A stretch of DNA of 64,000 nucleotides, from assembly GCA_900095095.1 (NCBI GenBank), contig FMBT01000171.1, forward strand, positions 19,259 to 83,258, given 5' to 3'. The stretch comes from Fragilariopsis cylindrus CCMP1102 (Eukaryota > Bacillariophyta > Bacillariophyceae > Bacillariales > Bacillariaceae). Each line of letters opens with the position of its first letter. Positions within the stretch are counted from its first letter, which is position 1. The position numbers were made by a program, and so were the translations under genes. Shown in pieces: positions 23,261-56,800 of this stretch. The notes below the pieces were generated by a model. It worked only from the letters and a program-made list of their open reading frames with translations, was not told the DNA's origin and searched no databases.

Positions 23261-26200
23261 TTAATGACCGTCAAGGTTAATTAGTGCCTCGTTAACATGT
23301 CTTTCGCTTTTAACCTTCTGCAGAAAACAGTCACGATCTAATAAGGGAACTGTACTATTTGATCTTTCGTTGTTCTTGCCATCAATATCAGTGGAAGAGC
23401 CGGCTTGCACCATGCTAAAAAAAATGCCATCGTCAATCTGGATCAACTCATGGTAGGTGCCATGTTCGGCAATAGTCCCGTGATCGAGAACGACAATCTG
23501 ATCTGCATCCTTAGACGTAAATGTGCTGTGAGATATGGAAACTATGGTCAGTTGCTCCGAGTCTCGGAGCCTTACGATCGTTTTCACAATCGAAGCCGCG
23601 GTCTCGGGATCAAGCGCGGACGTTGCCTCATCCAACAGCAGAACGGAAGGCTTTCGATATAATACTCGAGCCAAACAAATGCGCTGAATCAACGCCAGTT
23701 GCGACCAAATATATATAGCAAAGTAAATATTAGAAATTGAAGCAATTGAAAAAGAGAATGAAAACCAAAAGATAGGAAAAAAATCGAACTTACCTGAAGC
23801 TGCCCCCCGCTCATGTTTATACGGCTGTCGCCCCCAAGAACAGTGTCATAACCATCTGGTAGCATGGAAATTATGTCAGCTATTTCTGCCATGGTGGCGG
23901 CCTCAAATACCGCACCATCATTGTTGTCGGGTGAGCCAAAAAGAATGTTTTCTCGTATAGTCCCCTCTAGTATCATAGTTTTTTGAAACATCACCGAAAC
24001 ATATTGCCGGTAGCTCCTTAAAGAAGCACCAAATATTTCGGTTCCGTCCCACATAATAGAACCCTCATTGGGTTGCAGGTTTCTCATGAGCAAGTTGATC
24101 AGAGTGGTCTTTCCAGATCCACTAAGCCCACAAAGGACATTATAGGTCCCCCGTTTAAATGACAAATTGATACCTTTCAGCACTTCAACCGGCGAACCTT
24201 TATATCGAAATATGACCCCCTGTTTATCAGTATCAATGGTAAAACAACGCCAGTTGTGACCAAATGTATAGAGCAAAGTGAATATTAGAAATGGAAGCAA
24301 TTGAAAAAGAGAATATAAACCAGAAGATAGAAGAAATGTCGAACTTACCTTCATATCTATGCTCTCAGTAAGCGGGGATAACGACGGGTGATCAGCGCCA
24401 TTGTAATTAATAACAGTATTTCCACTAGCAATCAAATCATCAACTTTGCGAATACAACCAGCAGAATTCGATGCTTCACGCATGAAACCACCTAGCCGAT
24501 TGAGTGGTTCTGTCATACTGGCAGCCAAACTCACCAACGTGACAAACCCACCGACAAGTGTGGTATTATCGTCGGAATCTAGTACAGCTTTGCCATAGGG
24601 TATGATGACAAACAAAGTATAGATCGCGCCACACATCAGATAGTAGACCGAAATAGCTCCACTTGAAAAAATAGACCGTTGTCGTGCCTGGCTGAGTTCC
24701 AAAAGCATGGGCTGAATGCGATCAGCTGCCCATACTCCGGTGTCAGACGTAATTAAAACCGGAAGACAGTTGACAAGGCTCGCAAAATTAGAGGCTAACT
24801 TGCCTTCCAATCGTGATGCCTTTTGAGATGCTTCCGAAACAATAATGCAGATCTTATTTAGTAACAAAACAATCAATGAAATGTATGCAATGATAATAAT
24901 CTTGCATAAAAAATAACAAGATTATTTCCTGTGAAACAACCAAGAACTTACCGTCCGTAGCTTTCTTGGTAAGATCGTCATTGCTATACATTACAGGCAA
25001 TAGACAAATAAATGCTGCGGCCAAAATGATATTGACTTGTAAGCATGAAAGGCAAGCGATGGTAATTTTCATTGTAGAGAACAACATGGTGTAAGTGGAC
25101 GTGATGAGTGTCACTTCTACCCGACCCGTTTGACTTGTAAACACATCGACGATTTCTCCTGCGGAAGAACCATCACCGTCAACATTACTATTCACAACAG
25201 CACCCAGGGCTCGCTGCCGACACAATAGCATTGCTCGTGTATTCAGCTTCGATTGAGAATACGACAATGCAAGCATGATCACGGGATTAATACCCGCTAG
25301 AAAAAAATACACAATTAAGGCTGTTCTGGCATCCTTTTGATTATAGCTCGCGTTGTTGACAAATATACCTAAAGCGATGGCCTGTACCGGCGCAATTGCT
25401 GCGGCCATCGACATGATGATTAGCGATACGATGAATTCTCGAGGACATTGGATCCACTTTTGAAGGATGGTCCAGACTAAGGCAAAGGAGGTGATCGGGA
25501 CGGGGACCTTCTCGATGTTACAACCATGCTCACTATCGCAATACGACGAGAGGCAGTTGGCCATTTGTTTCACGACTCGTCTGAATTCGGACGAACTCAA
25601 ATACTGACTGTTGTTGTTGGATTTCCAACCGGGCCATATCGAAACATGTTCGGAAATGCGTTTCACGATGCACCAATAATCGAGGGCACCATCGCCCGCC
25701 GCACGTACCCGTTGATCGAGATCTATTTTTACTTTTTTGCCACGTTTAATGTCCTCGGAGACAATCAATACTTCCAACGCATGATTAAAAGCCTCTTGGA
25801 CTTGCTCCTTGGTTATTTCGGTGGACGTTTTTCGGAAAGATTGCATAATCATACTCGTGTCGCTATTTTCGTCGTCGTGATCATTAAATTTACCTGCTTG
25901 GTTGGTACCGAGGACATCTCGCAATTCATTCATCGGTTCATGATTTATTCGCAAAAAGAACAAATAACATCCGAACATGATTAGAGTTACAGATAAGATT
26001 GCTGTTTCGGATCGGTTCAATTGCTCGCATCCCAATGTTATGTTGAATTTGTCTTCTACGACGAGCAAGCCAATAATAGCAATGGCCAGATGCAACACCA
26101 GCGATAAAACGCACTGGAATCCTCCCCAGCGAAAATATATCAAGCCTCCAAAGAACGGGAGCGAGTACTCCCATAAAAATCCCGTGGCGATCCACAACGA

Positions 26201-26365
26201 AACATGGACAACGGAAAACCATTTAAAGTGTTCTGAGTTGCACCATCCTGGAGCCGTTATCAGTTCTGATACAGCGAACAGAAAGAACAATAGAAAGGAG
26301 ATGACCTGAACCGTATATCCAAGAGGTGTCGTGTAAGGTAGGATGAGCCGAAAAGTAGTATGCAT
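23261..26365 (-). CDS. ABC half-transporter (exporter type)
   Basis: Four exons: 26365-24952, 24830-24349, 24219-23794, 23683-23261, total 914 residues with no frameshift. The N-terminus has about five membrane helices as an extra domain, then a hydrophilic linker, then a six-helix exporter core (from PREFIVSLIIMSMAAAIAPV). One nucleotide-binding domain follows: Walker A GLSGSGKTT, Q-loop region SVMFQKTMILEGTIRENILF, signature MSGGQLQR (split by intron 3), Walker B SVLLLDEATSALD and H-loop SISHS. One such domain means it must dimerise. The extra N-terminal domain recalls ABCB6/HMT1- or TAP-like transporters; substrate unknown. Introns 2 and 3 are homologous to each other (see repeats). Confidence 0.88.
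23684..23793 (-). repeat. Introner-like intron, copy B (intron 3)
   Basis: A 110-nt GT-AG intron splitting the ABC signature after MSGGQLQ. The block 23691-23795 (almost the whole intron and the exon base pair beside it) aligns without gaps over 105 nt to 24246-24350, with 12 mismatches (about 89% identity). Confidence 0.9.
24220..24348 (-). repeat. Introner-like intron, copy A (intron 2)
   Basis: A 129-nt GT-AG intron between S-I-D-M-K and G-V-I-F-R-Y-K-G, just before the nucleotide-binding domain. It shares 105 gap-free nt with intron 3. The acceptor end differs: copy A has about 24 extra bases before its AG. It has no in-frame stop, so retention would insert 43 residues. Confidence 0.9.
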
Positions 26366-32778: not shown

Positions 32779-33333
32779 TTACTGTTCTTCATCAACAGGG
32801 ACAATATCTGATACTATTCCTTGTTTATGTAACCCTTCATTGTATGTTTCCGCAATTTCAAAACAAAATACTCCAACACATGCGATACCATTCTGATGAG
32901 CTGTCATCATCGTTTGATAGGCAGTCATTTCTGTGATACCCGTAATCTGTACGAGTGATCGTGCCACATGCTCTCTTGTATTTAATCCATCATTGTATAT
33001 TCGGACCTCCCATTCTTCACCACCCACATGTTCACGTTCTTTTACAACAGAAGAGGATCGATCAATGACCTTCTTTTCTGCTGGACGATCTAATACAGCC
33101 GGTCCGGTGGTTCTACCTGTTTTCTCTCTTTCAATAGTAGCCGGTCCTGCTGCTAATGCTGTGTTGAGTCTGTTATTGTGAGTCGTTGAAGCATGTCGTT
33201 GTTGTTGTTGTTGTTGATGTTGTACCGGTACATGTAGTTGTTGTGCATGGAAAGCGATACAAGTACCAAACAAAGAAGAGCATAAAAATAGCGGAAGTAC
33301 AGCAGACAGTAAAAATTTCATCGTGGAGATCAT
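32779..33333 (-). CDS. clpS: Plastid ClpS, Clp protease adaptor
   Basis: An intact 184-residue frame. ClpS hands N-degron substrates to the Clp protease. The core from about residue 105 reads WEVRIYNDGLNTREHVARSL, then QTMMTAHQNGIACVGVF and AETYNEGLHKQGI, ending I-V-P, the standard ClpS order. The N-D-x-x-N-T segment and the M-x-x-A-H segment form the known substrate pocket. The N-terminus is a signal peptide ending T-C-I-A-F-H-A, a diatom plastid-import motif, followed by a Q-rich and then a basic linker. A second in-frame Met (M-K-F) four codons later is an alternative start and also gives a good signal peptide. Confidence 0.9.
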   Translation of the reverse strand: MISTMKFLLSAVLPLFLCSSLFGTCIAFHAQQLHVPVQHQQQQQQRHASTTHNNRLNTALAAGPATIEREKTGRTTGPAVLDRPAEKKVIDRSSSVVKEREHVGGEEWEVRIYNDGLNTREHVARSLVQITGITEMTAYQTMMTAHQNGIACVGVFCFEIAETYNEGLHKQGIVSDIVPVDEEQ

Positions 33334-34277: not shown

Positions 34278-34364
34278 GTGTGCATGATATAGCCTGGTGG
34301 TTATTACAGGCTTCAAACTTGTAGACGGCTAACGCCGTAGTTGTTCGATTCAACCTTGCGCACG
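34278..34364 (+). tRNA. tRNA-Sec (anticodon UCA), copy 1
   Basis: An 87-nt gene with the special fold of eukaryotic selenocysteine tRNA: acceptor GTGTGCA/TGCGCAC extended past a U-U mismatch to nine positions, a six-pair D-stem (ATAGCC/GGTTAT) with four-base loop TGGT, anticodon arm CAGGCTTCAAACTTG with UCA reading UGA, a long variable arm ACGGC-TAAC-GCCGT and a four-pair T-stem GTTG/CAAC. G is the discriminator. It differs from copies 2 and 3 in the D-stem, where pairing is kept by changes on both sides. A T4 run at 34375-34378 can end Pol III transcription. Confidence 0.93.
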
Positions 34365-34497
34365 TGTGGTATTATTTTGGTTTGGTTTGGGGGCAGAAAA
34401 AAAATCCAAGTTTATATTTGGGCGATAGGACGGTGATGGTGATACCTATGGGTTCAAGTAGCCTTAATTTTATCTTTCAATCAATCAGTCCTATTTG

Positions 34498-34584
34498 GTG
34501 TGCATGATCCAATTTGGTAATTGGTACAGGCTTCAAACCTGTAGACGGCTAACGCCGTAGTTGTTCGATTCAACCCTGCGCACG
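34498..34584 (+). tRNA. tRNA-Sec (anticodon UCA), copy 2
   Basis: An 87-nt tRNA-Sec with D-stem CCAATT/AATTGG, loop TGGT, anticodon arm CAGGCTTCAAACCTG and the same variable arm. It differs from copy 3 at one base, C at 34576, which faces U8 at the unpaired position of the long acceptor stem. No T4 run occurs between this copy and copy 3. Confidence 0.95.
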
Positions 34585-34660
34585 TACGTACATTGGAAAT
34601 GCTATCAAACTCAACGGGGATTACTCTCACCACAAAATAATAGAGGAACTATCCTACTCT

Positions 34661-34747
34661 GTGTGCATGATCCAATTTGGTAATTGGTACAGGCTTCAAA
34701 CCTGTAGACGGCTAACGCCGTAGTTGTTCGATTCAACCTTGCGCACG
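34661..34747 (+). tRNA. tRNA-Sec (anticodon UCA), copy 3
   Basis: An 87-nt tRNA-Sec, identical to copy 2 except T at 34739. All features of the nine-plus-four-pair eukaryotic form are present. The first T-run long enough to terminate Pol III downstream is T5 at 34793-34797. Confidence 0.95.
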
Positions 34748-35389
34748 TATAACGTTCCTTTCCACTCTCTCAAGTCCAGAAAAAATCGACTGTTTTTCGT
34801 TACATAAGTCTGTTGCTTGCTGATGCATTATCATCAATCCAAGAGAACCCTGAAATAATTCGAACGCGACGACGGTCTTGTAATACTTTTGTTTCTTCTG
34901 CGACATTGTTTCCCTTAAACGAGTATCCGAGTTGAAATCGAAGATTTGTCTAACTGGTGTTCGTAGTTTTTGATCCGAGCGATGCACCTAGTTCCATCCT
35001 AGTTTGTTGCCCAATTTGGAACCCAGTTCCATCGCGAGTGCTGTTCCAAGTAGGGAGCTGAGCAACTTGCTCAGATTGCGACCCAGCTTTATGAAGGGCC
35101 AAAACTACTTGTAAGTCAAGACAACAAATTCAATGGTCGTTAACGGTAACAACTAGTGAACTCGAACCTGTTCCGTTGTAACTGGAAAATAAGCACTGCC
35201 ATGTATGTATTCAATACACACACGTAATTATTATAGTGACGAAATTATCCGTACGAATATAGTAGCATATACTATGTATGTGGTTAGTTAGGCATCATGT
35301 TTTAAAGTTCTTTCAAGTTATTATTTACAGTTTTAAGTCAGTTAAATGATCATCCCCTGATCTTATAGTAGCATTTCGTATTTAGTTAG
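34748..35389. other. Intergenic spacer
   Basis: Downstream of the tRNA-Sec cluster and at the 3' end of the large membrane protein. Contains the probable Pol III stop at 34793-34797; no gene recognised. Confidence 0.5.
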
Positions 35390-37822
35390 TTAGGCATCGC
35401 CATCATCACCGGCTGGACAACCCGGCCATTCAATTTGTTCTAAACAATTCAAGTATTCAAAGTTCATTGTAAAGTCAGCACCAAAATGATTGACCATAGC
35501 AGAACTAACAAGTGCACCAGTTGATATTAACCAGAAGAAAAAATACCAAAAATGATCCTTGAAGATATAAGATAATATCCGACCCAATGATAATTTTTTG
35601 CCTTCTCCTAGCCCTTGTTTGGAACTAAAGAAGACACTATAATTGATCCCAACTACCAGTAATAACATCAATACAATAAATATTGATCCGTATTTCTGTG
35701 CTTCAAACCAACGCTCATCACTAATTTGGAATGATTCATTCAAATGCTGTGCTGAACTTGGTATATTCCGTACTGCAATAAAAATTAATTGTTGATTGAT
35801 ACGAACAATAATATTTACACATAGTGACCCAGTTGAATCGACCATATGATACAGATCACGTTGTTCCCATATTTCCTTTCCTCTTTTAGTAGCAGTAGTA
35901 GATGGTGTTACTACTTTCTTCTTGCCCTCATCAGAATCATTACTATTATCGTTTGGTGTATCATCATCGAGTATGATATTCTCGAAGCCATCCGTTCGTC
36001 CTCCCATTGTTCCTATCCTACTAGTAATAATCGAGTCGTCATCGCTGCCAAAGTTTATAGGGGCTTCAACATCGTACTCGTCATCGTCGTCGTCATTGGT
36101 GGTGGTGGTGGTGGTGGTGGTGGTGGTGCCATCTCCTACACCCCTCATGATGCTCGCGAAGTTATTCATCTCGATTGCCATACTAGAGTCGTCATCACTA
36201 TCATCATACATCATTACACGATTTGTGGCATTTTCGATGCTACCCCTACCCGCATCGGTAGAATATAAGTAAGCATGCTTGCTCACATTCCCTCCATTAT
36301 CGGGAAAATACGTTCCGTTTTCTTCTTCTTCTTCTTCACCAACGGTCGTATCAAGAGTTGTAGAAGTATTGCATTTCGTTAAGCTCCGTACTACGTCTTG
36401 TCTGTCTTCGCTTAGACTCATATTGATGATATATTGATTCGATCCAGTGAAGCAGGCTTCTGTGATACCTTTCATTCTACTTGATTTTGATGATCTCCCG
36501 CCCACGTCCACGCCAACAACATTACCATTACCATCGGTATCGTGCTGTTCCTGGCCTTCTAATGCTGTTGCCTTTATAGCACCCCACCAAAGACCAATCC
36601 GGTCAACACCATTGTAGTATCGCCATAGTACCACAGACGATTCACTGGCGAAGAGCGCAAGTAACGTAAAGGGACTATCGATGAAAGGCCACGTAGCAAT
36701 TTGAACCCTCGTGAAAAGCACATCAACTACAAGGTTGAGTTGAATGAGTCGCTTCGGATTGAGACGTACTGCGGTGTTTGCACATATCAATATCTTGCAT
36801 ATGAATCGTAAAATAGCATATGAGAATAAGACCAAGTATTGAAGCGGATTGCCCTGTAGTCGTTGGATACCAATAGCCCACCCGATTACCGCCGTCAGTG
36901 ATACCCAATAAGCGAGTAGATGAGTAAACATGAGACAAAAATTTCCACGCTCTCGATCCGGCTTGGGCGTCATCAAATACATGATGGGAACAGCTGGAAG
37001 AGTTCCCAATGTTCCCGTAACGAAAATCGAGAAGGGAATCGGAAATATCGGCTCGTAGATAAATATTCCTTTCGTCAAAATTACATCAATAACTTTTGCA
37101 ATGATCAAACCAACGGTTAATGCAAGCATTCTTGCACGGACTGGAATCTTAGCTTCAGGCATAGCAAAGTTACATGTTTCTATCCATGGTACTATCATAA
37201 ATAGTTGATAGAGTGTCATGATACCATAGATAAAAATTCGATTTTCTTCAGGTCCGTCATCGACAGGGTTCATTGGTAGGAAGAACACAACCTCGCCAAG
37301 AAGTGGACAGAGAATCATTATAATTAAAACCCACATTAGTTGTCTCCATCGGAATGTTGCTCGATGGGGAAGATCTTTAATAACATTAACAGTAGTTACG
37401 ATAGATGCCGTTATTACACCCTCAGCGCTTGATCCCCAGGAGATAATGGTCGTATGAAGTTCCGACAACGTCGACGGTAGGTTTCCTGCAATCTCACTTG
37501 CGTGAGCAGGTAATTCTATCGCTATCTGCTTTATTACATTTGGAACTGTACGTAAATTTTCTGGTAGATCCACAATAATTTGTTGTAACTTCTCAACAAC
37601 CTTTTTTGGGTCGGCTATGAAACCAGGAAGAGATATCTGTTGTAAAATTGATGGTAGTAGAGTCGTCGTATTCGCTGTGGCGTCGGAATCGTTGTTTTCG
37701 TTGTCGTTGTTATCATCATCTCCATCTACATCTCCCCTATGTTTCTTGATGTCTTCCCCATCGTGAATAAGTTTAGGTACTTCATCTACGTCGATAATAA
37801 GTCGGGGGATAATACCGACCAT
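35390..37822 (-). CDS. Large multi-pass membrane protein, unknown
   Basis: An intact single-exon frame of 810 residues. An acidic N-terminus and an amphipathic stretch precede about seven membrane helices (residues about 165-405; for example LMWVLIIMILCPLLGEVVFF and IFVTGTLGTLPAVPIMYLM). A long Asp/Ser/Thr-rich loop follows (about 430-640, including a run of ten Thr), then two more helices (SIFIVLMLLLVVGINYSVFF and WYFFFWLISTGALVSSAMV). Topology suggests a transporter or channel-like protein. I recognise no family; similar large membrane proteins of unknown role are common in diatoms. It is divergent from the next gene. Confidence 0.75.
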   Translation of the reverse strand: MVGIIPRLIIDVDEVPKLIHDGEDIKKHRGDVDGDDDNNDNENNDSDATANTTTLLPSILQQISLPGFIADPKKVVEKLQQIIVDLPENLRTVPNVIKQIAIELPAHASEIAGNLPSTLSELHTTIISWGSSAEGVITASIVTTVNVIKDLPHRATFRWRQLMWVLIIMILCPLLGEVVFFLPMNPVDDGPEENRIFIYGIMTLYQLFMIVPWIETCNFAMPEAKIPVRARMLALTVGLIIAKVIDVILTKGIFIYEPIFPIPFSIFVTGTLGTLPAVPIMYLMTPKPDRERGNFCLMFTHLLAYWVSLTAVIGWAIGIQRLQGNPLQYLVLFSYAILRFICKILICANTAVRLNPKRLIQLNLVVDVLFTRVQIATWPFIDSPFTLLALFASESSVVLWRYYNGVDRIGLWWGAIKATALEGQEQHDTDGNGNVVGVDVGGRSSKSSRMKGITEACFTGSNQYIINMSLSEDRQDVVRSLTKCNTSTTLDTTVGEEEEEENGTYFPDNGGNVSKHAYLYSTDAGRGSIENATNRVMMYDDSDDDSSMAIEMNNFASIMRGVGDGTTTTTTTTTTNDDDDDEYDVEAPINFGSDDDSIITSRIGTMGGRTDGFENIILDDDTPNDNSNDSDEGKKKVVTPSTTATKRGKEIWEQRDLYHMVDSTGSLCVNIIVRINQQLIFIAVRNIPSSAQHLNESFQISDERWFEAQKYGSIFIVLMLLLVVGINYSVFFSSKQGLGEGKKLSLGRILSYIFKDHFWYFFFWLISTGALVSSAMVNHFGADFTMNFEYLNCLEQIEWPGCPAGDDGDA

Positions 37823-41565: not shown

Positions 41566-41637
41566 GTCCGATTGGTCTAGAGGCATGATTCCTGCTTTGG
41601 GTGCAGGAGGTCCCGGGTTCGATTCCCGGATCGGACC
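41566..41637 (+). tRNA. tRNA-Pro (UGG), copy 1
   Basis: A 72-nt tRNA: acceptor GTCCGAT/ATCGGAC, anticodon arm CCTGC-TTTGGGT-GCAGG with anticodon TGG, T-arm CCGGG-TTCGATT-CCCGG. No intron. A T4 run directly follows (from 41640). Identical to the copy at 47771. Confidence 0.97.
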
Positions 41638-44600
41638 TCCTTTTAATGTTCCTTATGTTTTTTTATCCATTATTTTTGTCCAAATTCGGTTGAGTTGAAC
41701 TTGAGTTACAGTATTAATGATTGTTTGTTTTTGAAACGGAAAGATGAAGTACGATATTGTGCTGCTATAGAAAATTAGAATACATGTTAACATTGCACAC
41801 TACTACTACTACCTTCCTTGATTGAATTATTCTTTCTATCTTTGACCCTCCCTTTTTCCATACAAAAAGCTTTTTTTTAGAAAGATTCTTTTTGTCTTTC
41901 GTTTTCATCCATTTTCAATGTGGCATTTCTTTGCTGCTGCCAAAGTCTCATTTGATGCTGAATTTGTCATTTTTTGGTTTATTGCCTTTAGCTGTGCCGA
42001 TAGGTTGGAGCTGAAGTTTTGCTATGTTTGCCTTTGCCCTTGGGAGGTTCTGTCTGAAATGGATTATTTTTTGTTGTTTCTTGTTGTTTCCTGTTCTTCT
42101 GTATTATTACGCCATTGTTTATTGAGAGTGTTGTTGGTTCACACACTGACTACGCTGTGGTCTTCTGCAAAATTTGCACTGTGTCCACAGGTATGTCCAT
42201 TGTGAGTTGCAAAGCTAGCTAGATTCAAACGGTCATCTTTCTATTTCTATTGAAAAGACTTTGTAATATTGATTCTTTTTGTCCTTCATTCCCATCCACT
42301 TATGTCAAAGTGTTGAATTATAATACCCACGCACTCCTGCTACTTTGAGTCACCACTTTTCTTTGCCTTGCTATGATATTATAAATTCTGAAGAATTTAA
42401 TTGCTTTACTATTAGATTGATTTGATTTGCTTATACTTCTCTTTGAAACTAGATCTATAAATACGTATGAGCAAATAAATGAAGTAATGCAATTGATACG
42501 AAATAAATTTTGTTCTGCTACTTTTAATCCCTGCTGTACATCACCACTAACAAATAGCCTGGAAATTACTTATGCTTAGGGCAACACTAACAAACTCCAG
42601 CTGTGTATCTCAAGCTACAACGGCACTACCAATTCTATTCAGAAAGAAACAATTACTTTGGACCACTCGCTCAAAATTGTCCCACTCAGTTAATTCAATA
42701 CAGTATATTATTGAATTGAATATAACAGATGGTAGGTGTATCGGCTTATGATTATCTCAAATAAGTTATTATAATATAGTGCACCTCTTTGCAAATTTTC
42801 CCAGGGGCTCTTCCATAATTAAATTTACTGGCTTATTACAATACTCAGAATATTTACATCCTCATAAGAATCAATGTAACTACTCTTGTGGATGAGTTGG
42901 TCACAACCTGCTGCTGTTGAATATAAGGACGTGGTTTGATATCTATGTGCATCAAAAATCTGTTTTGATTTGGTCTATTATGTATTAATATCAGCTTCCA
43001 AAGTTTCTCATTTTTATTTTTTAGATGGAAATTATCGTGTGCTTTTAAAACGCGTAAAATACCACCAAAATATGCTATAGCATGAATCCTGTTAATGAAG
43101 ATGATGTACCATCCATGCAGCGGCATAGAGTAGGTGTGGCTATTGATTTTAAGCGGAAGTGAGCAATGCCATAATTCACATACAAGGAAGCTTTTTCTGG
43201 TTTTCTAGGCAAAATCAGCATTTCAACATACCCATTGGTATAGATCCCCTTCGAACACTCTTACGCTAATAGTAAAACTAACAACACCCTGCTACTTAAT
43301 AGTATAACAGTATAATAGACTATAGTCAACTATTTGTTCAGCTGTTACTCTATTATTTGATTCATGTGTACGACATTACTCCTCTCTTTGTTATGCCCTC
43401 TTGTTGTGACAATATTTTTGAAGTTCAACTCCATATTCAATCAATAAAAATCCGGCACTTTATTATTTGCATATTGATCCGTTACTGTAGTACAATAGTT
43501 GAGATAATAATGCCTGTATATAACCAACACTTTCCCACTGTCATGTCATGTATCAATGTAAAAATAATATTTTCCATCATGACATTTCAATTCTTGTTAC
43601 TCGCACATAAAATGGGGAATCATCTAAAATCTGTTGTTTGCTCAACACCTTTTGCTTTCTTGTACACTATTGGTGAAATAAATTTTGGTTTGCTGTGAGA
43701 GTCCGAAAACAGCTAAATTAGTTTCTACTAACTCATAATTTTTGAATCGAGACTTTGTCGAAACAAAGCTTAGCTAAAAAAAGTACGGTATTTCGTGATT
43801 TGGGTTATGAAGTTTAGTACCGGTACTTAATATTATTATTGCTCTTTCGAAAGACTTAGGTTAATAATGAAATTCTAATTTTCATATGCCCCTGTGGAGA
43901 ATTTACTTTCCTACTGTATCTGTCCAGTATCATCCATCGCGTTTTTTTCATTTAACGGGAACGAAGACCTTTTCCACATAGAAAGGAGGAGAACATAAAA
44001 CTAAGATTGAATACATGACATGACATGATTGGATTTGGATTACTGTATTTTCGATTCATTATTTATTGACTTAAAACAAAAGAGAACAATGATTATTACA
44101 CCTTCTTCACATCAATACAGTTCTAAGTACGAGTAGTATTTTTTTTAGAAGTAACGATATGAAAAAGTCTTATTGGTTTAACATACACTACTTAGGCCAG
44201 TGAAGTCGCGTTCTTATTAGTTTTGTTTGAACTTGACCGAAGATTGCATCACTGTACACATACAACATGTTGTATATACAGTATTTGATTCATTTCGTCG
44301 ACGTGCTGGCCTAATAAAAAAATCAAATAATAAATGTCACGAATTGCCATCTGCTTACGGTAGTGCAGAAACAATAGCGCCGCAGCTTTTCTTCTTTACC
44401 ATCCATCCCATAATGCAGAAATTAATGAAAGTCAGTTACTTAGGTTACATCGGATTAAAATTTGTTACACGTAAGTTGAATTGTTGCATTTTGAATGTTT
44501 ACATTTTGTTGAAAGATATACACATAACATTCACATTTATCAAATAATCGCATAATATCATTGTTTGTAGTGTATCTAAAGGACGCTCTTTAATCCAAAA

Positions 44601-45039
44601 AAAAGGTAAGGATACAGCAATAGCTTTATTATGTTTTTCGTTGTTGTTTTGTTTTGTTCTTTCTTACAATGGTGATTGTATTTAGTTTCGATTACCTCGC
44701 TCGTGGACTGTGTTGACGGTTATATGCGAATGCTAATACGAATGCTAATGCGAATGCGAATGCGAATGCTAATGCGAATGCTAATGCGAATGCGAATAGA
44801 ATGATTTTGTTCTCCGAACATAAAAGAAAGGACTATATATGCTTTAAAAAAAGAAACACATTGATTGACCGACAACGTCTTACGTTTCTCTTCATTTCTT
44901 CTTCTTCTACTTTTTCTTTCTCTGAAACACTCACTCACTTAATGAATTGAATGTTCTTCACCTATTACATAATTCTGCAAACTCCAATAACTCCCTCCAC
45001 TATTATCAAAAAAACAACAACAACAAAAACGCCCAATAA
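41638..45039. other. Long AT-rich gene-free region
   Basis: About 3.4 kb in which I see no gene. Open frames up to about 113 codons (for example 41918-42205, 43357-43698) lack family features and have no supporting splice structure. It carries a GCGAAT/GCTAAT repeat at 44726-44798. Old transposon remains or a long non-coding RNA cannot be excluded. Confidence 0.5.
44726..44798. repeat. GCGAAT/GCTAAT hexamer array
   Basis: About twelve tandem six-base units alternating mainly between GCGAAT and GCTAAT, about 240 bases upstream of the multicopper oxidase gene. Confidence 0.9.
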
Positions 45040-47351
45040 ATGATAAGATCCAAATCAAATATGCGTTTCACTAATTCCATTTTGGTCATTATGGCCGCCC
45101 TATATTTACCTTCTTTTCACGGCGACGGCGTTGTTGTTGTTGCTGCCGCCGCCGCTACTAACGAAGCAGTAGGACAAGATAACAACGTCGATGTGGTTGT
45201 TGTTGTTGAGGACTTTACTATTACTGACGTTGAAGAGACTGAGACTACCGATGCTACTACTAAGGTATTGTTTCTACCAGATTACTCAAAAAGGATAAAT
45301 CAAACAAAAAGGATAAATCAAATTCAAATAAGAAAAAGATGAAGCGTGCAAAGAAGCAGAAAAGTAGTAAGACCAATTCACCAACCGTTACCAGTTCACC
45401 AACTGTTACACCACCACCATTATCTGATGGTGAACTAACATTTCCAAAACAAGTATTTGCAGGTAATGGTCGGATGGTTGTTACAATGGATTATGTTGAA
45501 CATAAAACAGTTGCTGCCACAACATTTTCAACACGTGCATTACATGGTGGTATACCTGGTAATACGGTTATTGTCAAAAGTGGTGAAACATTAGAAGTAT
45601 CATTTCAAAATAAATTAGTACTCCAACCTAACTCTGTTCAAGAAGATGAAAAAAATAATTCATATGGTATACCTGATACAACAAATTTACATTTTCATGG
45701 TGGACATATTTCTGGTGAAGAACCATCTGATGATATATATATTCATGTTCGACCTGGTGATAAATATGAATATACATCTAAATTTCCAGAAAATCATATG
45801 CCAGGTACACATTGGGTACGTTACGTTACGTCCGTCCGGTCCAAGTCCAACAACACACGACATTTAATCGTTTTCAGTCCAGTTTGGTTTCAGTTTCAGT
45901 TTCAGTTTCAGTTTCATTTCATATTATTATTTTTCCATTGCAAATTGTAGTGTCTCGTCTCGTCTCGTCTCATCTGATATACTGATATATATACACACAC
46001 ACACTAACGTATTGTATTTGTTTCTCTTTCCTTCTGTATTGAAAATAAAATAAATGTAATAAAATATAGTCCCATCCTCATGTACACGGTTCATCTACAC
46101 TTCAAGTTGGAGGTGGTGCAGCGTTTGCGATTATTGTTCCAGATGATCCAAATGTTATTGAAATCCCACAGGAGGTTACAGATGCAACTGATATCTTATT
46201 AGTTGTACAAGATTTTAGAAATTTAACAAATAGTGTTGCAAGTACATCACGTGATGAAAAATTTGAACTTGTTATCAATCCAGATGTTAACGGTGGTGAT
46301 CAATTCCGTCTTGTGAATGGAAAGTATCGTCCGAACTTAACTATCATTCCTGGTGAATGGTATCGCTTTCGTACTATTTATGCTGGATGGCTTACAGATA
46401 ATCTTGATCTACAGATTGTATCAGCTGATGACGATGATGATATTGACAATACTGTCCGACCATGTGAAACAATTCTTCTTGCAAAAGATGGTATCTATAT
46501 TAAAGATTATCCTCGACCTATTGATATTTTTCCTCTTCCTGCTGGTGGTAGAGCAGATATTATGGTTAGATGTCCAACTGAAGGATCATTTATTGCAAAA
46601 CATTATACAGCTGAAGAAGATTTGTTTACAATTACATCAAAATTACCCAAAGGACAAAAGAAGATTAAAATGTCTCCAGGACCTACCATAGGTTTTGTAT
46701 GGGATTTTCCTGCATACTTAACAGACCTTCAAGAAGAAACTACTGAACCCGGTTGTGATTGTACTACCAAATTGTCTAGACGTGAAGATTTAGCTTTCGT
46801 TGTCAATGATAGACAATTTGCAGCAGACAGTTACTTACACACTGTTAGTTACGGTGATGTCGCTGAAAGAACACTTACTGGTCTTGCTAAACATACATAT
46901 CATCAACATGTATATCCGTTTCAAGTCCAGACTGGATTTGATAATGCTACAACCAATGAGGGTGGATATTGGAAAAATGGTACGTATTTATCTTATCTAT
47001 CTAAACTGGTTATATTTTATGTATATGGTATTGTATTATAACAACTCTAACATATATATTAATACTTGTTTTCCTTCTTTTACTCATAATTAATTTTACT
47101 TACGAATAATAAAATAAATAAATAAAAACAAAATAGGTGACTGGCAAGATTCAATTAAAGCTGATTTACAGAACACTATTACTATGAAATATCGTCCTAT
47201 TGTATTTTCAGGAAAGATTATGTTGCATTGTCATATTTTAACTCATGAAGATACAGGTATGATGTCACAAGAACGTGTTGTATTTAACAATGATACTAGT
47301 GGTAATGGTCAATGTACATGTGACTACACATATGATTATATTGATATTTAA
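45040..47351 (+). CDS. Multicopper oxidase (laccase/CotA-like)
   Basis: Three exons: 45040-45815, 46070-46979, 47137-47351. One missing A in the run 45288-45292 must be restored; the exons then give exactly 633 residues. The N-terminus is a signal peptide (FTNSILVIMAALYLPSFHGD), so the enzyme is secreted or extracytoplasmic, followed by a Lys-rich linker. All four copper motifs are present: HFHGGH in exon 1; HPHVHG at the start of exon 2; HTYHQHVYPFQV; and HCHILTHEDTGMM in exon 3, which supplies the Cys-His pathway and an axial Met of the type 1 site. The family oxidises phenols, metals or bilirubin-like compounds while reducing oxygen to water. The substrate here is unknown; copper-dependent iron or manganese oxidation is one option. 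Confidence 0.88.
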
Positions 47352-47770
47352 ATGGAAGAAAGAATCTAAAAAAAAGAGAGGAAAGAAGAAACTAAAATAA
47401 GAGAAGAGAGCCCAAAAAAAATAAGAGAGAAAGAAACGAATCGAGATAATGGATTCATTCAAAAGATAAACCATGCTAGCTATCAAAAAAGTACGTAAAT
47501 ATATACTAAAAAGAAAAAGAATAATACTATCATTACTACACTAACACGTAAAACGTGCATTTACAGTAACAAAAACATTTAATTATCCAACATAAACTAC
47601 ATCGTACAGTAACGTTATGAAATACAGTAATATAATGTACCATCGTTTCCCTAATTGTATTACCATACTAATAGCTGCTACTAAGTGGAACTTGAATTAT
47701 TAATGATTGGGCAGTGACGATTCGTTGTGATTATGAATGTCCATATTTTTAATATCACAGCAATAAAATT
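47352..47770. other. Intergenic spacer
   Basis: Downstream of the multicopper oxidase. No gene recognised before the second tRNA-Pro. Confidence 0.5.
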
Positions 47771-47842
47771 GTCCGATTGGTCTAGAGGCATGATTCCTGC
47801 TTTGGGTGCAGGAGGTCCCGGGTTCGATTCCCGGATCGGACC
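47771..47842 (+). tRNA. tRNA-Pro (UGG), copy 2
   Basis: Identical over all 72 nt to the copy at 41566-41637, same strand, about 6.2 kb away. A T4 run follows a few bases downstream. Confidence 0.97.
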
Positions 47843-48247
47843 TTCGTTTTATTTTAATTGGAAAATCTATGCTTGATCTCATTCGATCAAAAAAAAAATT
47901 AGATTCTTTTTTATGATTTCTTTATTTGGCGATTGTGCGGAAATCGGAAAGGGCATATATTGTGTCACAGCGGCAGGTGTGACTGAACCCGAATAACGCC
48001 TCATTAGTATCTAAAAAACATGTACAGAATGCGTTTGACGTTGAGGAATGAAACAAATGTCGTACAAGCCAGGAAGCTACTTCAAGTACCTTTTAAGTGT
48101 CGATGTCGTCAATCGATACTATTGAAGAATAGTAAGAATCTTGTCTAGGTATTTCAATCACATCTGTTATTGCTGTACAAGCACTCATTGCACTAGAGAT
48201 TTAGTAGCTTGCTTATCACTCATACAAATACAAAAAAGTAGTAGAGT
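47843..48247. other. Intergenic spacer
   Basis: Upstream region of the Cys-rich membrane protein. Nothing recognisable. Confidence 0.5.
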
Positions 48248-50721
48248 ATGACGACGACGAACTTACTTACATCGACACTTCCAAAGTGGTTTCCAGTTTC
48301 TCCAGCAAAAAGAAGATTGGACTACGATAATGACGACAACTATCAAAGTTATCTGGTAGATAGTGACGGTAATTCATACGAACCTTATGCAATGGCATGG
48401 CGTTATTTGGGAATGTACATTGATTGTGACGTTCAACAAGAGTACAACAATGATGGTGATTATGATGGATCCGATGTCTACCGAAATCGACAACGACAAA
48501 GACGTACTACTACTAACACTAACACCAATACGAAGCAGAGAAATCTTTCTGGTAGTGGTAGCAATGATGGTGATGATTGTTCTAGAAAGGTATTATGGGC
48601 TGCATATGTCGATCCTGGTTATCGTGGAGATTCAATTGGAGAATATCAATTTTATAATCGATTTGAGGAAACATGGGATAAATCAACATGCCAAACTGGT
48701 AGATGTGCCAAGATGGACTGTCATTCATCAAAGAGTCGTTTCAAATTAATTGGTGTATTCAAAGAGGCAGATGGATTAACCGATTGGGCAGAACAATTAT
48801 TTAAACATGAAGGATATTGTGTTTGGAATGATAATGCTAATGCGAATAATGACTATGACAACGAAGAAGGAAGTGGAAGCGGCGATAGTAATGATGATGA
48901 TGACGAAGATAGTGATTATGAATTTATGTCGTCATTGCAGCAAAATCAAGTACAAGAATGTACGAGTATGTACTTAACAGACGATGACGGAAATTCTGTA
49001 TATCGTCACTTACGACCACAGGGAGAAGGCAACATAACAGATAGTCTATATACAGATGAAGATTGTACACAAAAATCATACATGAGTTTTGCGGATTATA
49101 TTATTAAGTGGTATACAAATTATTATTACGATAGTGATAAAGGTCAACAGGTTGCTGAAAAATGGCAAGCAAATACAGTCCGATGGAATGAATTAATGAC
49201 AGATTATAAAGTTTGTCAACCATGTCGAGCATATACTAAAACTCCAACGTATGATGATGATGCAGATCGTCTTCGTTTTCTTCGTCGACTTGATGACAAC
49301 GATGACGGTGAAGGTGATGAAGAACAATATGGATATAATTGCTACGATGATGCTGGTTATCGCAATTGTAGTAAGTTACTTATCCTTTTGTATTTTATCT
49401 ATTGCCTATTGTATTCCCTTGTTTTCATTGCCGTTGCTTTGCTGCATGCTCACGCGCTTTCCCTCTACTAATTTAAATCAACAAATGGAATAAAAGACCA
49501 GTGCCACAAATTCGAAACAAAGACCGATATGGAAGCAGCAACAGTATCTGACCTAGAACGCGCATCAGCACAGGGGACAATTTTAGCTATTAAAGTAGAT
49601 GGAGTTACATACGGAAAGGGTGGAATTGATTGGCATGATGTAGAATTAGAAACTCAAGCTGGAATATTCGTCCTAGTGGCAGTTGCTATTTTGGGTATGA
49701 TTTTTCTTCTTGTTCGATTTTTCGGGTGGAAATCTATATCCGAATTCTTTTGTACCCCTGTTAGAATAAGTCGACGACGACGACGGCGACGACTTAAAAA
49801 CAAGAGCTTGATTGAAACTTTCGTTATTGATTCTACCAATACGAATACCGACAACAACGATGATTCTAATTCCTCCGAAGAGAAACCATGGTCGAACGAG
49901 ATGGTAGACGAACTTTCGAAAAGAGAGAAGTTATCGAAAAGCAACGTCGTGAAATAGAGCAAATGAAACTAGAGCTAGATCAACAATATACCATTAGAGA
50001 AATGGAATGGGAAACGAATCGAAGAGAGTTGAACGAATACAAGAAGAAGAGGAAGGAAAGTAGTAACTTCCCGCCAGAATCCATTGAAGTAGATGCAGGA
50101 AAAGATGATGATAGAGAAGAAGAAACGGAGGGTCAACTAACGGAAAGCGAATGTGCTATGTCGGAGACCAATAGCTTTGTAACGGCAGAAGCTCTAGAAA
50201 AGAAAACTGACGACAAAAAACAACAAGATAATCAACAAGAACAAGACCACGACACGAAGGAAAAATGCATGGAGAGAGAAAATAAGATAAAAAAGAAGAT
50301 AGGTGCAGTAGTAGTAGTAATCAATGAAAGTGGAAAGGAAGAACATCAGCAAGAAAGTTGCGAAGTAGTAGTGGAAGAACAAGAACAAGTAGATAGTGAC
50401 AACGTAGAACATGCACGTGAACAACAACAGCAAGAACAAGGCACGGAAGAAAAGTGCACGGAAGGAGAAAACAGCAAAGCAATAGTAGCGGAAAAACAAG
50501 AGCAAGAGCAAGAACAAGAACAAGAACAATTAGATTGCGACAACGGAGAACAGACACAGAGACAGGAACAACAACAAGAAAACCAAGTTCAAGGATTAGA
50601 GCAAGCTGAAGAACGTGAAGGAGAAAAAGCAGAGGGCGTGGTCATTTCGAACGATACAGACGAATTGATAAAGGAGGAAAAAGAAGAAGAAATACCTATT
50701 CACAATCACGAAATAATCTAA
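48248..50721 (+). CDS. Cys-rich single-pass membrane protein, unknown
   Basis: Two exons, 48248-49370 and 49497-50721. One missing C at 49885-49886 must be restored to join the last part, giving 782 residues. The outer part is rich in Cys, Tyr and Asp (MAWRYLGMYIDCDV, WAAYVDPGYRGDSIGEYQFY, KVCQPCRAYTKTP, YNCYDDAGYRNCNQCHKFE), has acidic insertions and is probably disulfide-bonded. One membrane helix (GIFVLVAVAILGMIFLLVRF) is followed by a basic stop-transfer (SRRRRRRRLKNK). The cytosolic tail is a long Glu/Gln/Lys coiled-coil-like region. I recognise no named family. No signal peptide is visible at this start, so a further upstream exon may be missing. Confidence 0.72.
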
Positions 50722-50786
50722 TGAAATATAGTATTGTGTATTAATTAGCTTGTTATTTATGAATGGTTCCTTTCTTATCTATGATA

Positions 50787-52645
50787 TTATACTTGTATGT
50801 TCTGACGACCCAATGATTGGATCGCCTTTTCCGCGACTTGCTTTGCACCAATTAAAACTAAAGGTACTCCATTGCCCGGCCTAGTACTAGCGCCACAATA
50901 CAACACGTTTGGGAGACCAGACGATTCTGGTCCAGGACGTGTCAAGCTGAGTTGGGCAAATCCGTGGCTCTTTTTATTTATAAGGAAGAAGATATGGAAC
51001 AACAACGAAGGAGATAAATTAGTAAAGGTATCGACAATACATCGTTCGAATAGCGGCAGAGCGGCTCAGTAGAAACCCCACGATAATGCATCCTTCTACT
51101 CTATATGCATATGTAATTGCAGTTAACTTACCAATCCGAATGGGGTTCCAGCAGCTACGTTATATTGATCGGCCCATGTTGCTGGTGTTTTATATTCTTC
51201 GTGGATGATATGATCTTCAAGATTAGTCAAAGATTCAACCGCGGCAAATCGTTTCAGGACAGTTTTCCGTAATTGTGATACAACCTCGGGCGGAAATTGT
51301 TTTTGGTACTATCCATTGCTTCCTTTCGTGGTAGATTTCACATTCTTCGTCTCGCAAAAGCGTCCTACATGGAACGAGTACCATAAGGGTATCACAGCCA
51401 GGAGGTGCAACGGATGGATCTATTTTACTTGGACGGTGGACATAAAAGTTGAATGGAACGTCTTCTTCTTCGCCTGTATTGTTTTCTGGTACTACATCCT
51501 GCTGTGACTGTTGGTCCCGTAAAACTTGCCAACTAGCTTCAGCTTGAGACCGAGTCCTTGTCGAAAGAAATACGTTGTGCGTATTAAGATCGTCAAGTGA
51601 CTTATCTAGCGACCAATAGAAGGAAACAACGCCACTACTAAAGGTAAAACTATCATCCCAATCAAATTTATCGGTTTTCAGCGGTGACGGTGACGGTGTA
51701 GGTGATAAATGTGATGTTTTGGTAGGTTGTTGTATATCATTGTTTTCATTCCTAATGTTTTTGCTGTTATTTGCATTACTGCCATTGCTATCATCGGTAT
51801 TGCTGTCGTCAATAAGTAGCGACTTTTTGGCATAAGGTAGATCAGCATTGACAATGATCAAATCGGCAGAGATAAATTCATTTTCAACAACAGTATCATC
51901 GCTATCAATAGTTGAAGATTGTAGCCAAACTCCATCCTTGGTTACACCCGTTACGGTCGTATCGCATCGAATATCTACATCCAAATCTGTCACCAAACGT
52001 TCCAATGCGTTTGTTACGGCTTGGAATCCACCCATGGGTGCAAATACTGGTTGATATGTACGAACATAATATTATTATAAGCGGACAGAATGAAGCAAAA
52101 CACAGTTAGGATTATTGGTTCGTATCACAAAATTCTATAGAAATGAAATCGATAGGGTAGAATATTTCATCGATCCTAATGTGTGACATATTGCGGCATT
52201 TTAAAAAAAAAGGAGAAAAAAGTATATCGTAACGTACCTCCCGCCTTGTCATTGGTGGGATGCAATTCAATAGCGGCCAATAATCCAAAAACTGCTGGTG
52301 CTGTTGATTTTAATACCCCACCACCAATTAATTTTTCATTCCGATATGGTTCTAATCCAACATACAGATCTTGAAAGGATGCCAGTGCTTTTAATTTATT
52401 GGAATCAAATATTTCATCTAACACATCCGAATGTGGTTTCAGAGGCCAGGCACGACCAAAGTTTTTTAAGGATTGAATTAAAAATTCTGGTACTGTTGTC
52501 AAATCGAGTCGTTCTTCGATAAAATTTGGTAATCCTGCATTCAAATAGGCAGACGTTATAGTCATATAATCATCCCATTTCTTAGAACCATCTACTTCGT
52601 AGGTATCCATTTTAGTTCTAGACAATGCCTTTTCTACTTCTTGAT

Positions 52646-52677
<32 letters not shown>

Positions 52678-53390
52678 ATTTGTTCTGGGAATCCTACAGA
52701 TATTCGATCACCGTCATCGAAAATTACTTGATAGGCGGGTACGCATTGAACTATATCCAATCCATAATCACTTGCCGTTTTATTCGTGGATGTTGTTTCT
52801 GTAAAAAGGTCTTTGTAGATACTTGGTAGAAGCAATAAGCTCGGTCCTTGCTCATGTCGAAATAATGATGATTTTTTGTAATTGTTGTCGCCGTCATTGT
52901 TGCCAGTAGTGTCTAAGTCTACCTTTCCTACTGTTGGATCGACCCAAAACGATCCACATCGTCCTCCCACTTGGGAATTCTTTTCCAATATCGTCACCTT
53001 TGTTGGTTTCGTCTCACTACTACTGCTGCTGCTACTACTACTGGCGGCGATTCTAGCTGCTACCGCTAAGCCTCCAATACCTCCTCCTACCACGACAACG
53101 TGCTGGCCCGTTGCAGTATCATATAGTGAAGATGACGACGATGATGATGATGATGATGATGCTGATGCTGAGGATAAATAATAGTTCGTGGATACTACTG
53201 GGGGTAGAGTGATAGGAATGAAGGATGACGCCGATTCCAAAAAGAAAAATAGTATACTTATTATTGATGTTGTAATAAGTAGTATAGGCGATACTAATGG
53301 CAGTCGCTGTGGCTTCTGCCGTACACCACGATGACGGCAATATATGTTTGTGATGTTGGTGGTGGCGATTGTTACGGTTGAGGACGTCAT
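50787..53390 (-). CDS. CrtI-type carotenoid desaturase/isomerase-like
   Basis: Three exons: 53390-52238, 52046-51132, 50969-50787. Two missing bases in exon 2 (a G at 51322-51323 and an A in the T5 of the plus strand at 51300-51304) restore 750 residues exactly. A signal peptide ends in A-S-S-F-I-P, the diatom plastid-import motif. FAD binding: VVVGGGIGGLAVAARIA, then VTILEKNSQVGGRCGSF. GPSLLLLPSIYKDLF, GGVLKSTAPAVFGLLAAIEL, GVFAPMGGFQAVTNAL (across intron 1) and the C-terminal LSLTRPGPESSGLPNVLYCG with TRPGNGVPLVLIGAK match bacterial-type phytoene desaturases and carotenoid isomerases. Which carotenoid step it performs cannot be told. Confidence 0.85.
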
Positions 53391-53861
53391 AATGATATTG
53401 GTTGAAAAATGTTCCTCATTGTGTACATTACATCATGGCGCTTTACACCTTCTTTACAGTACACCGATTCACCGATTGATGGATGATGACAACTGAAGAA
53501 GAAAAGAATATCTATTTTCAAAAAATAAGCATGACTGAAAAATAATCTACATCAATACATACGCATAAAACCTATGATCAGTATGAGTAGGTGTACAGCC
53601 TCTCATCGAAATCTACCGTAATACTACCGGTATTAGTACGATGACCAAGCTACAGTATGCACAAGAGGCAAGAGGAGAAACAAAAAAGGATACAACACAT
53701 CACAGCACTTCTACTAGCGAGCTATTCGTATCGTATCGTCTTGCTATTGATTGGAATTTGTTGAAAGGGTCGATATCTAAATTAAATCGCAGTTGATATA
53801 TATATATATTCTCAGTTATCTCTTTCTGTCCGAAAAATCGAGAAATAATCAATCATTCAAA
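53391..53861. promoter_or_regulatory. Divergent intergenic promoter region
   Basis: Separates the starts of the CrtI-like gene (minus) and EMC1 (plus). It includes a short TA repeat near 53797-53809. No defined element can be named. Confidence 0.4.
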
Positions 53862-56800
53862 ATGACGACAATTAATAATAATAACAACTTTCTCGTCGTT
53901 CTTCTTATTGTTCTAATCAGTGTACTAATTGGTGATGAAGGTGTAAATGCTATGTACAAAGATGATGTTGGTGTATTAGATTTTTCGATAGCAACAGCTG
54001 GACATGGACCTATTGGTGTTGTCCATAATAACAAGAAGAACGGCATAGTTATTACAACCGATACACCAACCACAACAGCAACCACAACAACAACATCATG
54101 TTTCGTGGCTGGACGTCAAATAAATGATGGTAGTTTAGTTTGGCGTCGTAATGTTTGTTCCGTTCCTGACGAGGATGCACAAGCTCATGCAATTGCTGTT
54201 GGAAATGATGACGATGACGATGCCGATGCCGATGCCTTTTATACGGTTGATAATGTTGGTATTGTACGAGCATGGACGATTGAAAATGGTGATTTATTAT
54301 GGGATGCTCGTATCCATGCTGCTGCTTCTGCTCCTAAATTGTGGGTGACTAAGGTGGGGGGTACTACTAGTTATGTAGCGGTTGCTTCAGCAGATGACGA
54401 ACTCGTATTTTTAAATGCAGAAACCGGAACGATTGTTGATAAAGTTAGTGCCTCAAAATCTACTGGAAATGGACAACGTGTGGAATGGTTATCGGTATTG
54501 TCGTCTTCGACATCGACTTCGACTTCGATGGTCAAAATTATTCTTTCAAAAGTCCAAGTCGTTGATGGAACAATCCAAACCGGTAATGACTTATACTACG
54601 GAATGTATGAAATTGGTAGTAAAGACAAAAAAATCCCTTCTCTTCAAAGTTTAAGTCAACTCAAAACAGCCAAAAACATAGTCGCTAACACAGTACGAGT
54701 CTTCCCTACCGACAACAAGTCGGCAGAAGAATATCATCTTTTTGCTGTAACAACATCGGGATCAGTCGCCCATGCGACGATTGGAAGTTTTTCTTCATCG
54801 TCCTCCTCTGCGGATGTTACATCTGCTAGTGATTGGAACGAAGGTTGGAGTACCGTCGTTGCGGTAGAATCCACCACTGACCCGTCAGTGATCCGTCTAT
54901 TGGGAAAATCATCAGAGGAATCTACTATGGCATTGTTCCGGTACGAAAATTCCTCATCGTCATGGAAAAAACTTTTGACTTCCTCTGCTGCCGTCGCTGC
55001 CGCTGCTTTTTGTCCAGAATTAGGATTGGTTGTAACAACATCGAACGATAAATCGGTCGAGATATACCGACAACAAAATGGTGACACATTATCATCTCCG
55101 TTAAGAACATCCGGAGATATGTTTGGCGCAGATGGTGATTCGGTGGTTGTCGTTTCACTCCTCGAATGTTCTTCTTCGTCTGGCAAGATGACTGTTCTTT
55201 TAGGTACGGAACGTGGAAGCACGACTCTGTTTTCATTGGAAACTACTGGTGATGACGAGGTTGTCAACGTGAAAGTAGATTGGACGGCTGAAGAAGGTCT
55301 GGCAAGTCTATCATCGGCTATTGTTTTAGATGCTAGTCATTTGGGATCTGACGATCTAGTCGAAGAAAAAGATGCCGTTTCTCGAAAACTTTCACTTGCT
55401 GGTCGTTTGAATTCACAATGGGAGGACGTCGTTGGTATGCTGTCAACCGCAAACGGCTTGATCAACAACAATGCTGTCAACTTTAGTTATCGTGACCATT
55501 TGTTCGGATTTGTTAAGGTTGCTGCATTACTTTCTCCTAAGGTCCATCGAATTTGGGGAATGAGTACCGCAGGGAAGGATCGTGGATCGATTCGTTGGTC
55601 TTTGGATTTGCCGAAGAAGGCGATTTGGCACAGTATGGTTCACGGAACGACAAATTCTGCCAAGGCCACTCACGGTATCCACGGAGATACTCACAGTCGC
55701 GAAATCTTGGTTTTATCGGTATCCTCTGCTTCAGTCGATTGGATGTGTATCGATGGGACGAGCGGTGCTATCAATTCTCAAGACTCCATTAAAATTTCCT
55801 CTCCCGTTGTGCAAGTTTTGCCCGTATACGGAACCAACACGGGTGGCTGTCGTCAAGCTTCTATCTTATTAGGAGAAGATCTCAGTCTTACTGTAGTTCC
55901 CGCGGATACAGAAACGAATGCGTTGATTAAGAAACAGTTATATAAAACTCCCAACGGACTGTATACTCACAAGATAGACAAGGTTGCCAACAAAGTGGAA
56001 TCGTATCGCGTGGCACACACGGAAGAAGATGATAAATTCGTCGCCCGTTCCATTGGACTGACCTCTTTTGCTGGAGAACAGATTGTGAAAGTAGCATACC
56101 CCTTACGTCACGAGGATGTAAAGTCCATGAGTACCATCCTTGGAGACAATTCTTTACTACTGAAATATATCAATCCTCATATGGCTGTCGTTGTAACCGT
56201 GTTGTCGGATAGTGAACACCAAACTGCTACTACGGTTGCAACGGCGCTCGAGAAGGAGAGGAATGGAAAAGCTAAAAAGCCTGTCGGTGCAGGAGCTCCT
56301 GGATCATCCATTCCTCCGTCATCCCAAAATGGATCAGAAGATTTACCCAACATGTTTATCAACTTAGTCGACACGGTATCAGGACGTGTTCTGTACCGAC
56401 ACAGTCATTCCAATGTTGACGGCGATAAAAAGGTTTCGGTGGTAATTTCTGAGAATTGGGTCATTTATACCTACGTAAACGAAAAGACACGACGAACAGA
56501 AATCGGTGTCTTAACACTTCACGAGGGTATGATCGAACCAAAGGGTCTAACATTCTTTGCACGTCCTGAACAGTCTACGTCCTTTTCTAGCTTTGACGCT
56601 CGTGAGTCGAAACCGGTCGTACTTTCCAAGGTGTATGCTTTCCCCAAAGCAGTTACGGCACTTGGAGTAACCAGCACACGCCAAGGTATTAGTCGACAGA
56701 ATATTTTGATTGCAAGTTCTGATGGAGCACTCAATACAATTAACAAGATGATCCTTGAAACCCGACGGCCTGTTGGGGAAGCCAAACCGGAAGAGAAAAA

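Follow-up and report, generated by a model that had tools for sequence, protein, structure and literature searches.

Why should one chromosome region of a diatom carry three genes for selenocysteine tRNA (tRNA-Sec) side by side, and where did they come from? A single copy is the general assumption for tRNA-Sec, and the situation in Fragilariopsis cylindrus was termed striking by the authors of Secmarker, whose 2017 paper reported eleven non-identical candidates in this species, two of them with a broken pair and several with compensatory changes (Santesmasses et al., PMC5330540). The sequence-only reading that drew attention to the array was therefore right to regard multiple copies as unusual. 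Because these eleven candidates had been reported, the multiplicity of tRNA-Sec in F. cylindrus is already known, and the layout of the genes, the difference between the alleles and the mosaic described below are modest additions to it; a literature search found no title or abstract opening on array layout, allelic difference or inter-locus exchange. The window analyzed here is a stretch of 64,000 nucleotides, C138:19259-83258, from a long-read assembly of 67.88 Mb and 818 contigs in which both haplotypes are present.

The three genes are located on the plus strand and are 87 nt each: copy 1 at 34278..34364, copy 2 at 34498..34584, and copy 3 at 34661..34747, separated by spacer 1 of 133 nt (34365..34497) and spacer 2 of 76 nt (34585..34660), both also given for the plus strand. 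ARAGORN calls all three tRNA-Sec(tca), and made no tRNA-Sec call across 50 mononucleotide shuffles of the window. The Rfam eukaryotic tRNA-Sec model RF01852, with a gathering score of 47 bits, accepts them with 71.7, 76.6, and 78.0 bits, respectively (E-values from 1.1e-12 to 2.5e-14, calculated for the whole window). The two methods thus agree on the number, strand, length, and spacing of the genes that had been read from the letters, and the proposed fold stood up to the covariance model. Each gene has the UCA anticodon (TCA in the DNA), G73, nine acceptor and four T-stem pairs, a six-pair D-stem, and a long variable arm, again as had been described. Standard pairs are formed at 29 of the 30 positions in each gene, the sole exception being acceptor pair 8. 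A U.U mismatch at this eighth acceptor pair is a feature of animal tRNA-Sec. It had been ascribed to all three genes; this holds for copies 1 and 3 (U8.U79) and fails for copy 2, which has U8.C79 with the C at 34576. Single-strand folding z-scores are -3.05, -3.48, and -3.82 for copies 1, 2, and 3. The window trio are genuine tRNA-Sec genes of a diatom, arrayed in tandem. The neighbors of the array are unremarkable, a frame with a ClpS domain found by Pfam match (32779-33333, minus strand) and a frame for which the Pfam search gave no match (35390-37822, minus strand).

The array is one part of a larger family. A genome search with RF01852 yielded at least 15 places, at least 13 of them above the cut-off, with 53 of 3172 candidates scored, and a DNA search that used the flanked C678 copy as query recovered the identical set of 13 places and none further. 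Three of these are located on each of the contigs C138, C56, C69, and C547, and one on C678. The sub-threshold places on C23 and C451 were rejected as tRNA-Sec; they are alleles of tRNA-Ser(UGA). A genome-wide search for other tRNAs gave at least 63 places (63 of 2708 candidates scored); this being a lower bound, a comparison of their number with that of tRNA-Sec was abandoned.

Contig C56 is 99.2% identical to the window across about 41 kb, the alignment ending at window position 42410. This stop had suggested a segmental duplication, an interpretation that was dropped: beyond the main alignment, window segments 300-659 (99%) and 54500-54859 (100%) pair with C56 in the same order. As these matches anchor both sides of the window, we take C138 and C56 as alleles. 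Similarly, C69 and C547 are 99.3% identical across about 53 kb, and their arrays, the second locus, consist of three units with a 163-bp period, each starting about 62 nt upstream of its gene. A DNA search of the genome found the 3-kb region around the C678 gene a single time. In our reading, the 13 places comprise two arrays of three genes, each present as a pair of alleles, and one single gene; this corresponds to about seven tRNA-Sec genes per haploid set if C678 is one locus. A published, locally diploid FALCON assembly of F. cylindrus has 59.7 Mb of primary sequence (745 contigs) and 9.1 Mb of alternate sequence (288 contigs) (PMC5634323). As a separate observation, C56 has about 27 kb of extra DNA compared with the window haplotype (window 42410-54500 versus C56:128500-166919). 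The extra DNA contains a young repeat, since a 360-base piece of it (C56:137999-138358) is found on 11 contigs, at one place each, with 99-100% identity; a Pfam search with the translated piece identified no family.

Comparison of the two alleles demonstrates that the window array is heterozygous, since spacer 2 and copy 3 differ from their own allele. Spacers 1 and 2 measure 132 and 114 nt on C56, compared with 133 and 76 nt in the window. Window and C56 agree at 85/87 positions in copy 1, 130/134 in spacer 1, 86/87 in copy 2, and 58/60 downstream of the array, with 52/66 upstream of copy 1, versus only 52/117 in spacer 2 and 74/87 in copy 3. The differing part has its closest match at the second locus: window spacer 2 agrees with C69 spacer 1 at 73/76 positions, window copy 3 is identical to C69 copies 2 and 3 (87/87), and in a BLAST search window 34489-34749 is 97.3% identical to the second locus. 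Delimited by the first and last diagnostic differences from C56 in the alignment, the minimal tract of the second-locus type spans 34585..34727 (plus strand), and its ends may extend into identical portions of copies 2 and 3. This pattern points to copying between loci as the probable source of spacer 2 and copy 3. As spacers 1 and 2 of C56 are similar to one another (87/139), the older state seems to be that of C56 and the imported one that of the window, a direction that we infer from this likeness. The sequence-only reading explained the array by local duplication. The repeated C56 spacers and the 163-bp units of the second locus bear this out; for spacer 2 and copy 3 of the window, which look imported, the explanation does not suffice.

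Might the copies stem from collapsed, duplicated, or chimeric contigs? The raw count of 13 does overstate the genes per haploid set, as both haplotypes are assembled. However, spacers, flanks, and D-stems differ among copies and loci. The seemingly imported spacer differs from its donor-like counterpart at 3/76 positions and hence is not a verbatim assembly copy, and copy 2 has a private base. The eleven earlier candidates agree with the multiplicity (PMC5330540), although in the part of that paper used here the assembly behind the count is not identified. A collapsed or false duplication, named in advance as the finding that would overturn the array, is contradicted by the haplotype contigs, which differ within it as a copy error would not. 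All this makes an assembly artefact most improbable.

The 13 copies represent seven distinct sequences, and ten distinct copies when 100-nt flanks are included; one sequence is common to six copies, window copy 3 and five others. Three D-stem types are found: AUAGCC/GGUUAU, as in window copy 1, CCAAUU/AAUUGG, as in window copy 2, and CCUGCC/GGUAGG. The UCA anticodon and G73 are conserved in 13/13 copies, standard pairs are formed at 29/30 positions in 12/13 copies, and U.U occupies acceptor pair 8 in all copies but window copy 2. Among the seven distinct sequences, two-sided changes affect six pairs, five of them among the six D-stem pairs. The covariation score is 0.254 compared with 0.144 in shuffles (reached by 0/500), and sliding the partners of the stems abolishes pairing. 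A measure of further pair types is below that of 494/500 shuffles. The covariation supports selection acting on each copy; coming from only seven related sequences, it is not proof of this.

One copy deviates from this picture. The third copy of the C56 haplotype has 28/30 standard pairs, with a break at A5.C82; in its T-loop, C replaces T at the site we take to be T54 in standard numbering. Its folding z-score is -0.57 compared with -3.05 to -3.85 in four other folded copies, and judging from these features it is a decaying gene. If such decay were general, most copies would be pseudogenes or members of a spreading tRNA-derived repeat. This single clear case would fit, but every pair except pair 8 is kept in 12/13 copies, changes in stems are two-sided, and RF01852 together with the DNA search found only 13 places, grouped in three loci. 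We consider a family made mainly of pseudogenes or repeats very unlikely.

The explanation that we strongly favor is that F. cylindrus has three tRNA-Sec loci subject to birth-and-death turnover, and that copying between arrays gave the window haplotype its stretch from spacer 2 to copy 3. The window would thus be one haplotype of one of these loci, and the family would be made up of the three-gene window array, the second array with its three 163-bp units, and the lone gene on C678. Tandem duplication probably produced the arrays, some copies would subsequently decay, as the third copy of C56 appears to do, and gene conversion or unequal exchange may have put an intact second-locus unit into the place of spacer 2 and copy 3. 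Such a layout makes the odd multiplicity readable as ordinary turnover of a tRNA family. The genes themselves are presumably expressed and functional.

A peculiarity of the family concerns terminators. In the window, the first run of four or more T follows copy 1 at +11 and copy 3 at +46 (a T5 run), and no T4 run is found in the 76 nt between copies 2 and 3. After copies 1, 2, and 3 of C56, the first such runs are at +12, +82, and +46, respectively. Neither C69 spacer contains a T4 run, the first being at +238 past the third copy; the first two C547 copies are identical to those of C69, flanks included, and the third also has its first T4 at +238. In C678, the run is at +44. Hence, a T4 run within 10 nt downstream is found for 0/13 tRNA-Sec genes, compared with 3/3 of the other tRNA loci examined (+1 for tRNA-Ser, +4 and +5 for tRNA-Pro). 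Of random points in the window, 60% lie more than 76 nt and 30% more than 200 nt from a T4, and 4% have one within 5 nt. The absence of T4 is therefore weak evidence taken alone, as random points often lie far from one, while the T4 of the control tRNAs looks selected, as so few random points have it within 5 nt. It appears that T4 is selected for at the control tRNAs and not at tRNA-Sec, a contrast resting on only three control loci.

Read-through transcription of the tRNA-Sec arrays is a fair but unproven interpretation of this difference. In Leishmania, according to the title of one study, polymerase II and polymerase III both transcribe the tRNA-Sec gene. A stronger version would have the tight units transcribed as multi-tRNA precursors, unlike other tRNAs, and the arrays maintaining themselves by inter-locus copying of 163-bp units; we regard it as a rather doubtful speculation. 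A TATA-like element was also considered, as AT-rich stretches are seen by eye about 20-32 nt upstream of the tRNA-Sec copies inspected; they were set aside as uninformative because the tRNA-Pro genes share them. The window contains two tRNA-Pro(UGG) genes, at 41566-41637 and 47771-47842, about 6 kb apart. They are 97.6% alike over 82 bp, and no longer shared flanks were found.

As far as genes alone can tell, these would be ordinary eukaryotic tRNA-Sec, charged with serine, converted by SepSecS, and delivered by eEFSec to UGA. The search for genes of Sec synthesis and delivery covered SepSecS, SelD, and eEFSec. SepSecS is matched by two pieces on C651, SelD at two places with equal scores (model positions 46-262), and the eEFSec domain by two pieces in one frame on C108. 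The second SepSecS piece (C651:13064-13414 and flanks) carries an in-frame TGA, which may be an intron, an error, or a real stop. Among potential selenoproteins, one of three Rdx matches has an internal TGA in the context CVS-TGA-G, presumably the SelT motif, and 5/9 glutathione peroxidase (GPX) matches have one internal TGA, which may or may not lie at the Sec codon. A genome search with SECIS_1 (RF00031) gave no matches at E up to 10, with 133 of 1400 candidates scored; this may reflect low sensitivity of the model for diatoms, and we base no conclusion about SECIS elements on it.

Another scenario is that selection for a high tRNA-Sec dose keeps the arrays, for example to supply abundant selenoproteins in a cold sea with variable selenium supply and translation rate. 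The full fold kept in all copies but one is in line with it, as are the intact counterpart of the decaying C56 copy on the other haplotype and the existence of the TGA-containing GPX and Rdx genes just described, with the reservation about the GPX codons. On the other hand, spacing and copy number of tRNA-Sec vary between the haplotypes of one strain, which resembles drift, and numbers of tRNA-Sec and selenoproteins are not correlated (PMC5330540). For F. cylindrus, that paper reports 36 selenoproteins, an ordinary number because diatoms range from 20 to 44 selenoprotein genes (PMC7539508). The suggestion in the sequence-only reading that the lineage makes many selenoproteins thus finds no backing in these reports, as far as the parts cited go, and dose selection seems to us possible but unlikely, turnover with inter-array copying being the preferred explanation.

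Several known systems can be compared with this family. The F. cylindrus candidates reported earlier share G73, compensatory changes, and broken pairs with ours, and eleven candidates there compare with ten distinct flanked copies here. The part of that report used here gives no loci, spacing, or allelic pairing, which are resolved in our analysis together with the mosaic tract (PMC5330540). Another protist with tandem tRNA-Sec is Trypanosoma cruzi Dm28c, where eleven genes form, in contrast, a single long trypanosomatid array; the likeness is one of arrangement alone and implies no kinship (PMC12421993). More than one tRNA-Sec gene per eukaryotic genome is also found in zebrafish, Branchiostoma floridae, Parasteatoda tepidariorum, and Daphnia pulex, which have two to four copies, those of Daphnia containing introns, unlike the window genes (PMC5330540). 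A tRNA-SeC is reported for Nitzschia inconspicua (PMC8329260). Since tRNA-Sec is usually a single gene, this diatom provides a natural test of a possible dose effect on UGA recoding. Its alleles differ in the number of sound copies, and the sequence variants could tell expression of the loci apart.

Some observations concern other genes. On the minus strand of the window, at 23689-26365, two overlapping frames resemble parts of one ABC transporter gene; the upstream frame matches an ABC membrane domain with 22.8 bits, below the cut-off, and the ATP-binding part of the other was recognized by eye. The ice-binding domain has 53 match places genome-wide (places, not genes, some being repeated within one frame), for example C307:329379-330080 and C674:243466-245442. 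The matched 234-residue part of PDB chain 6a8k, which we take to be the F. cylindrus ice-binding protein, is present in the genome with 100% identity. A solved F. cylindrus structure is mentioned, in the part of the review cited here without a code (PMC10992025).
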